This document shows positions 44,274-50,900 of a stretch of 64,000 bases of DNA, piece by piece. Origin of the DNA: Maribacter sp. 1_MG-2023 (GTDB taxonomy: Bacteria > Bacteroidota > Bacteroidia > Flavobacteriales > Flavobacteriaceae). The stretch covers positions 1 through 64,000 of the forward strand of contig NZ_JAUOPN010000017.1 of assembly GCF_030547005.1 (NCBI RefSeq), written 5' to 3'. Numbering within the stretch: the first letter of the stretch is position 1; each line of letters starts with the position of its first letter. A program made the translations under genes and the position numbers. Under the pieces are notes generated by a model that was not told the origin of the DNA, searched no databases, and saw only the letters and a program-made list of their open reading frames with translations.

Positions 44274-45461
44274 ATGAAAAGTAACCCATTAAAAATCATT
44301 ACCGGTCTTATCGTATTGGCGCTAAACTATACGGCGTGCAATTCTCCTGCAGCTATATCGGGTACTATAGCAGGATTAGAAAAAGAAAACACTAAAATAT
44401 ACTTAATTCAACCTGAAACCTTACAACATGTAGCAGCTTCCTATTTAGGTAAAGTAATAGACTCCGCCGTTGTAAATAGTGATGGTAGTTTTGAGTTCCA
44501 CAAACTACCAACTACTAAAGAACCGGTTTTGTTTGAGTTGGTAGTTCAGCCTTCAGGAAAAGGAGCTAATTATTTACAAAATGACAACCCTATAAAGGCT
44601 AACTATATGCCTGTTATTTGGCAATCTGGAGAATCACTTCAAATAACAGCGCGGTTTAATGAATTTCAAAAAAGTTTTACGATAGAAAATCCTTCAGATT
44701 TGAATACCGCTTTGTTAGCGGTAAGAGATATCAAAGCGGAAGCATACCAAACCTTTCTTGCCGATAAGCATTGGAATGTTGAAGACGGCGATGAATTAAT
44801 GGCAAAAGAACATGCCATTTTACAATACAAGTCATCTTTAATGCAGTTTGCAGATAGCACTCCCTATCTTCTGCCGGCATTGGTAGCGTTAAGATGGGTA
44901 AGTCCAGAAAACGATTACGAACGCGTACCTGAATTTTTAGTGAATCAATGTACGAAGTGGAAGGAAAAAGAAACCGGTCACCCGTGGGTAAAACAACTTT
45001 GCAAAAAAAGTGAGCCGACTAATTTACCTGTATTAATCGGCGATAAATTCCCGAATATTCAACTTCCTTTGTTGTCAAAAGATACCGTATATATCAAAGA
45101 TGTATTAGGTGAAAAACTTACAATAATTGACTTATGGGCATCTTGGTGTGCTCCTTGCAGATTAGAAAACCGTAAGGTTCTAGTACCGCTTTATAATGAG
45201 TATCATGAACAAGGGTTACAAATTGTTGCCTATGCATTAGAAAGTGATGAAGCAGCTTGGAAAGCAGCTGCAACCCGCGATGGCGCAGACCGTTGGCTAC
45301 AATCTTCAGATTTAAAAGGTGATGATGCACCTTTTTTAAAGAAAATACGTGTTCGTACCATACCTGCTAACTTTATTCTTGATAGTAACGGAGTGGTCAT
45401 TGCTAAAAATTTACATGGTCAAGAATTGATGGATTTGGTGAAAGGTAGCTTTGAAAAGTAA
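44274..45461 (+). CDS. TlpA-like thioredoxin-fold lipoprotein with DUF4369-type N-terminus
   Basis: 395 residues. Signal peptide with lipobox NYTAC (Cys22). A DUF4369-type beta domain (about 26-140: AISGTIAGLEKENTKIYLIQP ... FEFHKLPTTKEPVLFEL) precedes helices and a C-terminal AhpC/TSA-thioredoxin domain (about 250-395) with WASWCAPCRLENRK. It should reduce or shuffle disulfides in periplasmic proteins, or serve a c-type cytochrome or cell-surface assembly pathway. Copy D of the repeat begins 24 bases after its stop. Confidence 0.9.
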   Translation: MKSNPLKIITGLIVLALNYTACNSPAAISGTIAGLEKENTKIYLIQPETLQHVAASYLGKVIDSAVVNSDGSFEFHKLPTTKEPVLFELVVQPSGKGANYLQNDNPIKANYMPVIWQSGESLQITARFNEFQKSFTIENPSDLNTALLAVRDIKAEAYQTFLADKHWNVEDGDELMAKEHAILQYKSSLMQFADSTPYLLPALVALRWVSPENDYERVPEFLVNQCTKWKEKETGHPWVKQLCKKSEPTNLPVLIGDKFPNIQLPLLSKDTVYIKDVLGEKLTIIDLWASWCAPCRLENRKVLVPLYNEYHEQGLQIVAYALESDEAAWKAAATRDGADRWLQSSDLKGDDAPFLKKIRVRTIPANFILDSNGVVIAKNLHGQELMDLVKGSFEK

Positions 45462-45485
45462 GTTGAAACTACATTATAATTACCC

Positions 45486-45616
45486 TTTTCGTTAATAACT
45501 TGGTCACAACTCTTTATGTAAGTACTTGCGTACAACTATTGAAATATAGAACTTAGCTTTCTCTCCCCGAAACATGATAATGAATCAGCTAAAAAGAATT
45601 GAAACTTTTCTTAGCT
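45486..45616 (+). repeat. degenerate dispersed repeat, copy D, with hairpin
   Basis: TTTTCGTTAATAACTTGG, a GTAAGTACTTGCGTAC middle and GAACTTAGC are followed by a hairpin (45587-45616: AGCTAAAAAG ... CTTTTCTTAGCT). The hairpin core GCTAAAAAGAATTGAAAC is shared with copy E and lies 30 bases before the next start codon. Confidence 0.6.
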
Positions 45617-45646
45617 ATTCAGTAGGAAACATTATAAAATTAGCCT

Positions 45647-47497
45647 ATGAGAATAAAGGAAGACATTCCAATATTAGGAAAAGTTACTGTAAACTTCCTT
45701 GATTTAAGTGCGAAACTATATCAACATTATATTGACATTGAAGAAATAGATAGGCAAAAAAACACAGCTCATTTAGGTTTAATTTCTCACGCATTTAAAA
45801 ACTCAAATCACAGTAGATTTGATTATTTAATTTTACAATGTGTAATATCTGAACTAATTGAAAACTCATTTAAAGGAACTACTAACGCACAAGGAAGTAT
45901 CACAATAAATGGAACAAAACAGACTGGAAATGACGTAATTAAAACTTGGATTTTACTTTCTAATTTTGGGCACTGCAAAAACACAATTGGAGACGAAAAA
46001 ACATTACTTCTTCATTGTATTCAAAATAAATCTTACAAACGAAAACTAATTAATTGCATTAAAGATGCAAAATTAAAAAAATGGTCTGAAAGAGTAATTA
46101 ATAATTTTGATTACGTAAGTTTTCATCATATTATAAGTTTTATTAGAATTTATAAGACATTCACAAGAAGAGTTGAAAGACAAGAAGAACTTATTAATAT
46201 TTACAAACTATTACTACTGCCAGAAGAAGAAAATGAACCAATAGCAAGCTCTATTCAGATTTCTCAACTAAAAAATCTTTATTACATTTTAAGAGATATT
46301 TCTATAATAGCTTTAGATTCAAGAAATAGTTCTTTACCCTTCAATTTAGATATTCTTTCTACAGTTTTATCATTAGATTCTTTTGAGAATAAATATCAAA
46401 ACAAAAGGATTTCAATCATATTGGAGCCATTAATTTCTATTTTGTGTGATAATCTTTATTTGAATATTAAAAGCCAAAAACATCAAAGGTCATACGAAAT
46501 AAATGCATCTAAAACAATCGGAACAGATGTAATGAAGAGTCTAGATACTGCTTTAAAAGATGGATTATATAATCCTACAGTATGTAATTTGCATCACTTT
46601 TTAAGAATTCAACTTGACAAAAAAAATATGCTTTTTGAAGAGATTTCAAAAGCTACTCGACAAATTTTGACTGTAAAAAAAGGAGTAAGTGGTGTTGATG
46701 CATCAATGGACTTAAATCCGTTTACTGACGAAAGAGTTATTGATTTTTATTTGGAAGATAATTTTAATATTAAACATTTTTCAACTTTCATTTATAATAT
46801 TGGAAACATTACAATTGAACAAATTATAGGAACTGCATCAAATGAATTTAATAAAACTAAAAAAATCAATGAGATAATAGATTCCAATTTAAATAAATTA
46901 CCAATAACAAATGCGGAAAAGGAAGATTTCAAAAAGCCAATCCAAGAACATATTTCGTCAAATATTAAAAAAGTTTTATTAAATAAAAATTTACCAATAT
47001 TCAAAAATATTCTTTGGGCAGTTCTGCGTTATCACCTAGATTCAAAATACCATTTTGATATAGATAATCACTCTTTTGAGAACTATGATTATTTTGGAGT
47101 AAAGGTTGCTGGCTTAAATCCTTTAAAAGAAAATTTAGACAAAGCCATAGATTCTGAAAAAGATTTAGATAGAAAACACGAATTAAATCAATTAAAGAAA
47201 TCAGCTTACAGAAAATTTGAAGGTTCTGTGCTAATTTGTCTTTCTAGAATTAAAATTTACAATTACTCTTTATCACCAAATAATAGGATAGTAACTGATA
47301 TTGATGGAGTTGTATTAAAATTTAATGATGAAGAATTGATTTTAGAATTACACGAAAGTAAGAATACAGCTAGACCTGAAAAAGATGCTATAAAAGATAT
47401 AAATTCTAAACTTTTGAAAACCATTGACAAAAAAATAAAAGGTATTAAAATTAAAAAAGTTTCTGGCTGTGGAGCAAAAATTTATATCAAACATTAA
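45647..47497 (+). CDS. unknown 616-residue protein: HD-like N-terminus, PD-(D/E)xK-like C-terminus
   Basis: No family recognised as a whole. Near residues 42-120 the order HLGLISHAF, NHSRFDYLIL (H55, R57, D59) and LSNFGHCKNTIGDE (G108, H109, D116) imitates the metal-binding order of dNTPase-type HD domains, but the diagnostic HD pair is replaced by SN, so it may be inactive. A long helical middle part follows. Residues 550-575 read TDIDGVVLKFNDEELI then LELHESKN, the D-x-ExK core of PD-(D/E)xK nucleases (D551/D553, E570, K572). No signal peptide or membrane segment. It is lysine-, asparagine- and isoleucine-rich and flanked by the hairpin repeats, which fits recent transfer. A defence role is only a hypothesis. 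Confidence 0.7.
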   Translation: MRIKEDIPILGKVTVNFLDLSAKLYQHYIDIEEIDRQKNTAHLGLISHAFKNSNHSRFDYLILQCVISELIENSFKGTTNAQGSITINGTKQTGNDVIKTWILLSNFGHCKNTIGDEKTLLLHCIQNKSYKRKLINCIKDAKLKKWSERVINNFDYVSFHHIISFIRIYKTFTRRVERQEELINIYKLLLLPEEENEPIASSIQISQLKNLYYILRDISIIALDSRNSSLPFNLDILSTVLSLDSFENKYQNKRISIILEPLISILCDNLYLNIKSQKHQRSYEINASKTIGTDVMKSLDTALKDGLYNPTVCNLHHFLRIQLDKKNMLFEEISKATRQILTVKKGVSGVDASMDLNPFTDERVIDFYLEDNFNIKHFSTFIYNIGNITIEQIIGTASNEFNKTKKINEIIDSNLNKLPITNAEKEDFKKPIQEHISSNIKKVLLNKNLPIFKNILWAVLRYHLDSKYHFDIDNHSFENYDYFGVKVAGLNPLKENLDKAIDSEKDLDRKHELNQLKKSAYRKFEGSVLICLSRIKIYNYSLSPNNRIVTDIDGVVLKFNDEELILELHESKNTARPEKDAIKDINSKLLKTIDKKIKGIKIKKVSGCGAKIYIKH

Positions 47498-47725
47498 AAT
47501 TATTACAATTAGAAACCAAGAGTAATTTATAATTCTAGTAGATTATAATGATGTTTATTTTGCCGTTTTATACCTTGATAATTTATTTTTTCTAAAACCT
47601 TTTAATCTATAATTTTATCAGACAAGAAAACTTCACTAGCTCCCCCAATTTTTCTCATTTATTCATTTGCATCTAAACTTGGCAGCTATTTAGGTTTTAA
47701 TATTTGCATTTAATTTTTTTTAAAA

Positions 47726-47773
47726 CGAACTTAAGCATCATCTGCTAAAAAGAATTGAAACTCTTTTTAGCTC
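47726..47773 (+). repeat. degenerate dispersed repeat, copy E (hairpin part)
   Basis: CGAACTTAAGC is followed by the hairpin GCTAAAAAG / CTTTTTAGC (47744-47752 and 47763-47771, a perfect 9-bp stem). The loop start AATTGAAAC is identical to copy D. It lies 34 bases before the next gene. The rest of the 310-bp gap (47498-47807) is AT-rich and shows nothing recognisable. Confidence 0.6.
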
Positions 47774-47807
47774 CATGATTGCAGTAATTAAAGATAAATA
47801 GAACGAC

Positions 47808-48470
47808 TTGATTAAAGAATACGAAAGAGATTTATCTGAATCGGATAAGAAAGTTATTTTAAAGGAAGTGAACGAAACAAAATCTTACTTTCCTAAAACA
47901 AAAAAATCTGTTCTACTTAAACTTCCAGTTTTACTAGGGTTCATAATTGCAATTTACAATTTCCCAACGCTATGGTTAATCATTCCAATACTAATTATAT
48001 CGTTCTTCATGATATGGATGTTAGTAATGGAAGTAAAAGATTTAGCCCGTTTACCTAAATTCTTAAAAGAAAAAGTGGCGATAATTGAAACCGGTATTGC
48101 AAGAGTTCGAGAAATAAATATAGATCGATATGCCAAAATTAAAAGCTACAATGACGAAGGAGATCATTACATAATTGAACGAGATGGTAAACTGATTATG
48201 ATAGGTGGTCAGGAATTCGATGGTGTAAGAAAGCTCAAGAATAAGATTGAATATATAGAACTAATGGACTCAAGCAAAGCAAGTGTTTATAATACAAGAA
48301 TTATAAAAAATGGTCAAAGCCTCGAGCCATATCATGTATTTAAAGGCAAACTACCTGAAGAATTGATGAACTCAGAACTATGGAATCAACTGACGGAACA
48401 AGAACCATTTGATGGAAAGCTTGAAGATTTGGATAAATACATACAAAATAAAGCTGCTAACAAGGTGTAA
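47808..48470 (+). CDS. two-helix membrane protein of unknown function
   Basis: 220 residues with a TTG start (MIKEYERDLSESDKK); the first ATG in frame is far downstream. Two adjacent membrane helices (about 36-53 and 56-76) split a short charged N-terminus from a 140-residue soluble domain (EIDRYAKIKSY-like strands, ERDGKLIMIGGQEFDGVRKL). No family recognised. It is the last cargo gene of the repeat-rich stretch; a long inverted repeat follows before the convergent dehydrogenase. Confidence 0.7.
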   Translation: MIKEYERDLSESDKKVILKEVNETKSYFPKTKKSVLLKLPVLLGFIIAIYNFPTLWLIIPILIISFFMIWMLVMEVKDLARLPKFLKEKVAIIETGIARVREINIDRYAKIKSYNDEGDHYIIERDGKLIMIGGQEFDGVRKLKNKIEYIELMDSSKASVYNTRIIKNGQSLEPYHVFKGKLPEELMNSELWNQLTEQEPFDGKLEDLDKYIQNKAANKV

Positions 48471-48590
48471 AAACGCACTCTACACCGAACGATAACGAAA
48501 CCCCAACTACCCCCTATTCTTCTCTTCTATTTATTTCCCTATAAACTAGGTAGATGTTAGGACTGCTGATTTAGCTTTAAACAAAAAAAA

Positions 48591-48678
48591 CTAAGCTTCG
48601 TGCGTGTAGTAAAACTAAAAAATTCCTTACTTACGCACCAAGCTTAGCTTGACCGTTGTGCGAACTGTTTCACACAAC
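48591..48678. repeat. long inverted repeat between convergent genes
   Basis: CTAAGCTT-C-GTGCGT (48591-48605) pairs with ACGCAC-C-AAGCTTAG (48633-48647); further weak pairing GTAGTAA / TTACTTAC extends it inward. A second small stem GTTGTG / CACAAC (48655-48660 and 48673-48678) follows. It could end both converging transcripts, but it has no strong T tract. The words CTTAG and TTGCG-type edges resemble the dispersed repeats before it. Confidence 0.55.
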
Positions 48679-48696
48679 TAAAATATCTCAAATCAA

Positions 48697-49578
48697 TTAT
48701 TTCTTCAACTTCACAAAATAATCGAAGATTTCAGGAACATTTGCGCTTGCCATACCATCATCGAATGCAGCCTGTAGGCTAGCAGATGTAGCAGAAGCAA
48801 CTTTAGATTCTGTACCAAGATCATCCATCATCTGTACAAAATAACCTAAATCTTTATTCGCATTGGCGATAGAAAAGCCTAAATCACTTACATGATCTAC
48901 TGCGTAGTTTTTACAAAACTTCATGAACGGAGAATTCGAAGGTCCAGAAGACATAATATCGAAAAGTTGTTGCCCATCTACACCAGCAAGTTTAGCCGCT
49001 GCAAAAGCTTGTGACATTGCTACAACTGTAGTCATACCCATAAAGTTATTGATCAACTTCGTAGTATGACCAGCACCTAGAGGTCCTAAATGAAATACAT
49101 GTTCCCCTTGTTGATCTAATATAGGTTTTACCTTTTCAAAGGTATCTTTATCGCCGGCAGCCATAATGTTTAGCAATCCGTCTTTTGCATGAGCGGGTGT
49201 ACGACCAAGCGGAGCATCGATCATACCAGCGCCTTTTGCAGCAAGGTCTTTACCAATTTTCTGCGTAGATGCAGGAATTGATGTTCCGAAGTCTATCAAA
49301 ACAGCACCTTTTTTAATACCTTCAAGAATACCATTTTCACCGTAAACGATTTTTTCTACAACAGCAGAAGTCGTTAAACAGAACATGATAATGTCACTAT
49401 TTTCTGCTAATTCTTTTGGAGAGGCAGCTTCTTTAGCATTACCGCGAGCGATAACAGTTGCTACTGCATCTTTGTTAAGGTCCATTACATTTAGCTGGAA
49501 TCCTCTTTTTTGTAGGTTCTCAACCATATTGGCGCCCATTAGGCCGAGTCCTATAAATCCGATAGTAGGGTTTTTCAT
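48697..49578 (-). CDS. 3-hydroxyisobutyrate dehydrogenase-family NAD(P)-dependent oxidoreductase
   Basis: 293 residues of the beta-hydroxyacid dehydrogenase family. N-terminal GFIGLGLMGANMVENLQKRG binds NAD(P); FGTSIPASTQKIGKDL is the substrate loop; the catalytic Lys is in AGHTTKLINNFMG; the C-terminal domain is all-helical (KDLGYFVQMMDDLG). Members reduce or oxidise 3-hydroxyacids such as 3-hydroxyisobutyrate, tartronate semialdehyde or succinic semialdehyde; the substrate cannot be told from sequence. It is a single gene between accessory elements. Confidence 0.9.
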   Translation of the reverse strand: MKNPTIGFIGLGLMGANMVENLQKRGFQLNVMDLNKDAVATVIARGNAKEAASPKELAENSDIIMFCLTTSAVVEKIVYGENGILEGIKKGAVLIDFGTSIPASTQKIGKDLAAKGAGMIDAPLGRTPAHAKDGLLNIMAAGDKDTFEKVKPILDQQGEHVFHLGPLGAGHTTKLINNFMGMTTVVAMSQAFAAAKLAGVDGQQLFDIMSSGPSNSPFMKFCKNYAVDHVSDLGFSIANANKDLGYFVQMMDDLGTESKVASATSASLQAAFDDGMASANVPEIFDYFVKLKK

Positions 49579-49652
49579 ATTTGTTTCATTATTTAGTGTA
49601 AAAATATAAATTTACTAGTTAACATATTTTACTAGTTTTAAAAAGAAACTCA

Positions 49653-50900
49653 TCAACTCACCCCCCTATTCTTCACCTCAATCCATTTGCTCATAAACTT
49701 AGTAGCAGTCATGGTTTGGTGTTGTAATAAAGCCCCTGTGAAGTTCTGTGTTCTGTGAGATTTCAAACCCTTTTGAAGTTGGTCTATTTTTACTAAAAGA
49801 ATACTTTCTAAACTGGTTTTAGCATACAAAGTATTCACTAAGGTTTTACCTTTCTCTTGAGCGTTATTCCATTCATGTTCAGTTGAGTACAAACGTACAG
49901 CGGCATTAGCAAACTCGTTAGGGTCGTTTTCTATGTAACCGTTCCAATCTAAAATTCCGTGCATACCTTCGGCACCTATAGTTGTGGTGACACTTGGTGT
50001 ACCATTTTCCATGGCAGAAAGTAGTTTTCCTTTAATTCCCGCTCCAAAACGTAACGGAGCTAGACATACTTTTGCCGATTGCATGACTTCATTAACATCT
50101 TCTGCCCTACCATGTACTAGAAATCCGCCAGCAGGATTATTCATTTCTACAATTTGCTGTGGTAAATAGGCACCGTAAATATGTAATTTGGCTTCAGGTA
50201 ATTGGGTATGAATTAGTGGCCAAATGGTAGTTTTTAAATATTTAACCGCATCTATATTAGGAGCATGCTTTCCGCCACCAATAAATATAAAATCTTTTCT
50301 TTCTTCAAAAGTTTTCCAAGTAGTTTCGTTGGTAATTTCATCGACCATAAAAGGAAGTAACAACAATAGACTTTTGTCTATTATGATAACATCGGTCAAC
50401 AATTTCAGTTCATAGCTAGAGATAATTAAAGACAAATCGCAACGATAAATACTAGCAATTTCTCGCTTGGTTTTATCATCTGCTAACCAAGCATCTGTAG
50501 TAAATGGAATATCTTTTTTAAAGCACTGTTCACGCACATGACGAAGGGAATGTAAATCTTCGGTATCTAACATCCGAAGCGCATCGGGACAGATTTCCGC
50601 CACGCGCCACCCAAATTGCTCTTCGGTCAGAAAGCGATCAAACAATACCACATCAGGCTTCAAATCGGTAACAAAAATATCAAAAGAACTATCGTTCATT
50701 TTAATATACGCCGTTTGATATCCTAAAGAAGTAACATCAGCCGAAAAATCTGAATTAGATGCTGCAGAAGCAACAGTTATCGAATATCCCTGATTTTGCA
50801 ATACGTCTAATAACTGCATCATACGAACACCGGCAGCCGTAGAAGCAGGTTCTGGCCATACTAGAGCGATAACGAGGAGGGTTTGGGTTTCGATAGGAAT
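49653..50900 (-). CDS. group 1 glycosyltransferase with lost standard start
   Basis: GT-B fold, GT4-like. The first ATG (50822) gives 389 residues, but the frame continues upstream to 50900 as TQTLLVIALVWPEPASTAAG-VRMMQLL, the conserved N-terminal strand and loop of flavobacterial glycosyltransferases. No ATG, GTG or TTG exists in that stretch, and a TAA ends it at 50901, exactly where TTAGGTG-type repeats begin. The donor-binding C-terminal part is intact (FIFIGGGKHAPNIDAVKYL, LHIYGAYLP, VCLAPLRFGAGIKGKLLSAMENGTPSVTT with the E). It probably adds sugars to an envelope polysaccharide, or did before the start was lost. Confidence 0.78.
   Translation of the reverse strand: MPIETQTLLVIALVWPEPASTAAGVRMMQLLDVLQNQGYSITVASAASNSDFSADVTSLGYQTAYIKMNDSSFDIFVTDLKPDVVLFDRFLTEEQFGWRVAEICPDALRMLDTEDLHSLRHVREQCFKKDIPFTTDAWLADDKTKREIASIYRCDLSLIISSYELKLLTDVIIIDKSLLLLLPFMVDEITNETTWKTFEERKDFIFIGGGKHAPNIDAVKYLKTTIWPLIHTQLPEAKLHIYGAYLPQQIVEMNNPAGGFLVHGRAEDVNEVMQSAKVCLAPLRFGAGIKGKLLSAMENGTPSVTTTIGAEGMHGILDWNGYIENDPNEFANAAVRLYSTEHEWNNAQEKGKTLVNTLYAKTSLESILLVKIDQLQKGLKSHRTQNFTGALLQHQTMTATKFMSKWIEVKNRGVS

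Follow-up and report, generated by a model that had tools for sequence, protein, structure and literature searches.

Animals and bacteria are both defended by proteins with a dNTPase fold, which break down nucleotides. In the anti-phage system Clover, dTTP activates and a nucleotide signal restrains the HD dNTPase CloA, which hydrolyses dGTP and keeps its HD motif (PMC12265719). The 616-residue protein described here, encoded in the window (the whole stretch of 64,000 nucleotides that was analysed), resembles Clover (CloA plus the nucleotidyltransferase CloB) and the defence dGTPases in combining an HD-dNTPase fold with phage-defence settings. However, it differs from Clover in lacking the HD pair and a partner nucleotidyltransferase and in carrying a fused putative effector; inspection by eye of the ORFs next to the window copy turned up no CloB-like nucleotidyltransferase. 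With SAMHD1 and the bacterial HD dNTPases (2o6i, EF1143; 2q14, BT4208), the protein shares the fold of residues 1-457, the N-terminal beta pair, and the motifs LG...F...HSR, the LL-x-x-x-GH helix and the motif around D224, whereas the HD pair and the metal-binding His are missing and a nuclease-type domain has been added at the C-terminus. That domain has the D-x(16)-E-x-K spacing of PD-(D/E)xK nucleases, but matches no known member in sequence or fold libraries. Relatives of the gene resemble integron cassettes, with one gene per cassette, complementary R''/R' ends, attC-like hairpins and arrays in several hosts, although the window copy has lost its attC and, in Flavobacteriaceae, the recombinase nearby lacks the IntI-specific stretch.

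Each of these components is of a known kind, be it the dNTPase fold, the ExK nuclease or the cassette cargo; their combination appears undescribed, as no description was found in the open-access literature searched. We consider the chances even that the protein acts on its own as an anti-phage nuclease under the control of a catalytically dead sensor of the dNTPase fold. The features of the locus are collected in Table 1.

Table 1. Features of the locus, in window coordinates
Feature	Coordinates	Strand	Basis
616-aa gene, pseudo-dNTPase plus putative PD-(D/E)xK nuclease	45647..47497	+	single open frame, ATG start, no internal stop
SAMHD1/HD-dNTPase-like fold, codons 1-457	45647..47017	+	VIA-align and hhalign
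Y60, at SAMHD1 metal ligand H167	45824..45826	+	hhalign pairs HTRFHH with HSRFDY
S105-N106, at SAMHD1 HD pair H206-D207	45959..45964	+	hhalign pairs LLHDIGH with LLSNFGH
R216, at the fourth metal ligand, SAMHD1 D311	46292..46294	+	spacing to D224 only; hhalign has a gap there
Putative PD-(D/E)xK nuclease core, codons 529-616	47231..47494	+	D553/E570/K572/D584 invariant (12 members); AF2
Predicted catalytic signature D553...E570-x-K572	47303..47362	+	sequence; invariant
Cassette 5'-end remnant GTAGGAAAC	45623..45646	+	Olleya homology begins at 45623; Olleya has attC core GTTAGGCAAC here
33-nt palindromic repeat, copy 1	45584..45616	+	repeat and pattern search; recurs in congeners
33-nt palindromic repeat, copy 2	47740..47772	+	repeat and pattern search
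Hotspot left border, TlpA-like thiol-disulfide protein	44274..45461	+	precedes variable cargo in several congeners
Hotspot right border, NAD-binding 3-hydroxyisobutyrate dehydrogenase-like protein, then glycosyltransferase-like protein	48697..50822	-	conserved in congeners

The reading frame is complete and intact by ORF and sequence checks. The protein had no match above noise in Pfam, PADLOC, NCBIfam or PHROGs, and no profile in these libraries labels it a defence protein; weak matches to uS13, FbpA, nsp and VH-SARAH were dismissed because they did not cover the conserved motifs. No relatives were found in the viral_contigs and phages collections, so that a phage origin is without support.

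The first-pass annotation, made from the sequence, had read residues 1-130 as a degenerate HD/dNTPase domain and the C-terminus as a PD-(D/E)xK-like nuclease. The motifs that it quoted are present, HSR (55-57), SN in the place of HD (105-106), FGH (107-109) and GDE (115-117) in that order, and DIDG (551-554) and LELHESK (566-572) at the C-terminal end. Fold, profile and motif all back the degenerate N-terminal domain, the extent of which was underestimated, given that the fold match spans residues 1 to about 457. Foldseek alone found no significant match for the whole-protein AlphaFold2 model, which was built on six sequences (pLDDT 76.8, pTM 0.74, with low confidence at residues 42-80 and 223-255). 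For the model of residues 1-457, all of the best 50 VIA-align rows were SAMHD1 or HD dNTPases, with Z up to 14.0 over 328 residues, a match that became visible only after VIA re-ranking. Because helical models may score high Z by chance, independent sequence evidence was sought. The sole PDB sequence match of the N-terminal family profile was the HD protein 2o6i, at LG...HSR (E 0.088; 0.52 with an earlier whole-protein profile). The hhalign score against true flavobacterial SAMHD1-like dNTPases was 37.95, compared to 24.2 for the best of 200 column shuffles, 13.9 for the reversed profile and 17.8 for a different HD family.

As judged from these alignments, the metal ligands H...HD...D have been lost through conserved substitutions, the replacement of D311 by R216 being placed by motif spacing only. 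With the ligands replaced, the domain would be dNTPase-like in fold but not a dNTPase. The quoted motifs are not chance occurrences: in the 12-member alignment, where identities fall to 19%, H55, R57, Y60, R216 and D224 are common to at least 90% of the members, and Y60 is conserved in every member that covers its region. Of the 11 members covering S105-N106, 10 have SN and the remaining one, the distant member P0006, has YQ. The dN/dS ratio is about 0.1 both for residues 1-457 and for residues 458-616, and both halves of the protein are under purifying selection. Conservation of the replacements, together with this ratio over residues 1-457, indicates that the domain is maintained while its usual chemistry would not be usable.

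What the dead domain might bind bears on the choice between two readings. The top structural matches include SAMHD1 structures with bound DNA or RNA oligonucleotides (6u6x, 6u6y, 8tdw), and restriction-modification systems are present in the defence islands of relatives. Both observations favor an alternative that we regard as unlikely but deserving serious weight, namely that the ligand of the SAMHD1-like domain is nucleic acid, not a nucleotide, and that the domain guides the nuclease to phage DNA or RNA, in the manner of a standalone restriction-type nuclease. However, R57 and D224, which correspond to residues that contact the substrate in dNTPases such as SAMHD1 (mapped here by motif), have been kept and point to a retained nucleotide pocket, and the gene has no linked partner methylase.

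The case for the C-terminal nuclease starts from conservation. D553, E570, K572, D584 and G609, along with L103 in the N-terminal part, are invariant in the 12-member alignment; D553, E570 and K572 are the residues named in the first-pass annotation. In a separate AlphaFold2 model of the C-terminus (pLDDT 89), the elements follow in the order helix-strand-strand-strand-helix-strand; D553 is placed between two strands and E-x-K closes the strand after that, followed by a helix and further strands. This predicted order fits that expected of PD-(D/E)xK enzymes. Fold searches with the model gave no clear match (best Foldseek E 0.6, best VIA-align Z 4.5). The influenza PA endonuclease, which has a PD-(D/E)xK fold, appeared at Z of about 3 only and was set aside as evidence. 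Since these searches neither confirmed nor excluded the fold, it is the signature that carries the assignment of the C-terminus as a probable DNA- or RNA-cutting domain. The two outcomes named beforehand as damaging to the first-pass annotation, that neither fold would be predicted or that D, E and K would vary, did not occur; its observation was right and its interpretation is partly supported, leaving aside the predicted C-terminal fold and the candidate defence role.

The gene has been transferred horizontally. Over 45623-47494, the DNA of the window copy is 96.6% identical to that of the Olleya copy, with no identity outside this segment (blastn), and the close copies sit at unrelated loci, different in each host. 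Between the window and Olleya copies dS is 0.12, whereas the cysteine synthase of the same genomes, a core gene, is saturated in dS. Along the gene (window 45647-47494 against L011), dS to the Olleya copy is uneven, 0.06 over residues 1-457 and 0.33 over residues 458-616, which suggests a recombinant (mosaic) gene.

In five genomes, the copies are or border integron-type cassettes. In Olleya, the homology begins at the attC-type core GTTAGGCAAC and the cassette closes with its exact complement, GTTGCCTAAC. The R''/R' cassette ends are complementary at 10 of 10 positions at the Olleya, Neolewinella and G894 copies and at 5 of 10 in Arenibacter, and the attC-like sites fold as long hairpins. A covariance model (R1) was made from seven attC-like sites, all of which belong to the loci of Olleya and Arenibacter; some of its matches there therefore arise by construction. 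The model found 73 sites in Olleya, 18 in Wenyingzhuangia, 12 in Arenibacter and 9 in the window's own genome. Sites of this kind flank the Olleya, Arenibacter and G894 copies. The R1 search of the window gave no match, the attC having been lost at the window copy, where only the 5' boundary coincides with a cassette junction. Less than 1 kb separates the Desulfobacterales copy from a true IntI that appears to be frameshifted, and this genome was the only one with a true IntI (TIGR02249 above cut-off).

In Flavobacteriaceae, R1 detected integron-like arrays in which single-gene cassettes are accompanied by attC-like hairpins, namely in G642 (Olleya, L114 and L115), G646, G643, G894 (L123) and contigs C1, C2, C7 and C20 of G000. 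Four tyrosine recombinases of 375-408 aa (L110:7594-8721, L111:3876-5003, L118:2899-4098 and L116:4590-5816) match IntI at both ends but without model positions of about 180-240, as judged by hmm matches only. Three of the four share a contig stretch with attC-like sites, and that of L116 is at a contig end; these recombinases may be the integrases of the cassette arrays.

The window copy has landed in a genus-wide hotspot between the TlpA-like gene and the glycosyltransferase (window 44274-50822; L042, L044, L045, L047 and L052). The cargo of congeners at this hotspot includes type II CBASS, Wadjet JetABCD, GmrSD_N with HEPN, AAA with DUF4435, DUF6161, and the restriction-modification pair EcoO109I and a C5 methylase. 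Elsewhere, relatives of the gene adjoin a CAP12-type TIR protein and an Mrr-NACHT protein (L012), a DUF4365 protein (L014), or a type IIG restriction-modification protein and a DUF1016-like protein, the latter recognised by eye (L125), and one lies between type II CBASS and type I restriction-modification (L128). The homologues occur in defence islands and also on mobile cassettes. From this genomic context we infer a defence role; with relatives both among anti-phage systems and in integron cassettes, the gene makes a good candidate for an anti-phage protein not described before. On the other side, many non-defence genes reside in integron cassettes and hotspots, and several of the congener hotspot loci carry ordinary genes.

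Separately, since the DUF6161 protein (L049:3624-4841) is cargo at the same hotspot, the DUF6161 family may be related to defence.

Toxin-antitoxin genes are frequent in integron arrays, and the present gene is cassette cargo in several genomes. It could accordingly be a cassette-borne toxin or addiction nuclease, restrained by its N-terminus and kept for the stability of the element rather than for defence. We consider this improbable, given that no conserved antitoxin-sized partner was found, that relatives outside cassettes occupy defence islands, and that 616 aa is large for such a toxin.

The family is rare and patchy, with at least 13 members in Bacteroidota, Bacillota plasmids and Desulfobacterota. 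Close copies are those of Olleya namhaensis (97% aa identity) and Arenibacter (87%), and relatives were found in a same-family genome (50%) and on a Peribacillus plasmid (31%); other relatives come from Flavobacterium, Reichenbachiella, Wenyingzhuangia, Neolewinella, a Desulfobacterales MAG and G988, and more distant members are P0005, P0006 and P0007. In a sample of the phylum, 5 of 395 genomes gave a match, one of them spurious, and 2 of 297 Desulfobacterota genomes did so. The matches at L010 and L003 were judged spurious, being biosynthetic genes or frames with stops. On a Priestia plasmid (L005:7992-8516), the C-terminal part of the protein stands alone, downstream of a DUF6602 gene and near AAA and DEAD-helicase genes, either as a remnant or as a domain used alone.

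This distribution speaks against a housekeeping protein of DNA repair or nucleotide metabolism unrelated to phages, a reading that might draw on the repair roles of SAMHD1 in animals described in PMC9640623: only 3 of 397 genomes of the same family have the gene, it is absent from the congeners searched, and its locus differs in each host. Hence we regard a housekeeping role as highly improbable. It is scarcely credible that the N-terminus, for all its dNTPase-like fold and the conserved pocket that appears to remain, is still an active dNTPase depleting dNTPs via a different metal site, given that Y, S and N (and, by spacing, R) stand in the place of the ligands, that the replacements are themselves conserved, and that in Clover the HD is strictly conserved and HD mutations abolish defence (PMC12265719).

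Under the preferred reading, that of a nuclease controlled by a dead sensor, the N-terminal 457 residues would form a SAMHD1-type fold that no longer binds the catalytic metal and most likely serves as a sensor or assembly domain, still binding a nucleotide (dNTP-type) or nucleic acid. The C-terminal domain with D553, E570 and K572 would be the effector, cutting nucleic acid once the sensor is triggered in infection, and the gene would be mobile cargo that travels in part as an integron-type cassette. We infer the nuclease activity, the ligand, the trigger and the defence itself. Several observations count against this explanation: no library calls the protein a defence protein, Foldseek gave no significant match for either model, the C-terminal fold was not confirmed, no operon partner is conserved, and the whole-protein model has a six-sequence basis and two low-confidence stretches. 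A more specific version, which we hold only tentatively, is that of a pseudo-SAMHD1 immune sensor that has traded catalysis for detecting the dNTP pool or a nucleotide signal, unleashes the fused nuclease, and has spread between phyla partly as an integron-type cassette. If so, the conserved dead dNTPase fold joined to a nuclease would represent the same fold turned into a sensor. This would add a single-gene defence candidate missed by current libraries, and points to the integron-like cassette pool of Flavobacteriaceae as a source of more candidates.

The gene had initially been placed between mobile-looking repeats. The two 33-nt palindromes are 91% identical, with none expected in shuffles, and each copy is able to form its own hairpin. 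They were rejected as ends of a mobile element because the palindrome also follows the upstream gene in congeners; the repeats look like hairpins, and it is the integron-type cassette boundaries in relatives that demonstrate mobility. Directly after the second palindrome lies another uncharacterised cargo ORF (47808-48470), which has a TTG start and encodes a likely transmembrane protein of 220 aa.
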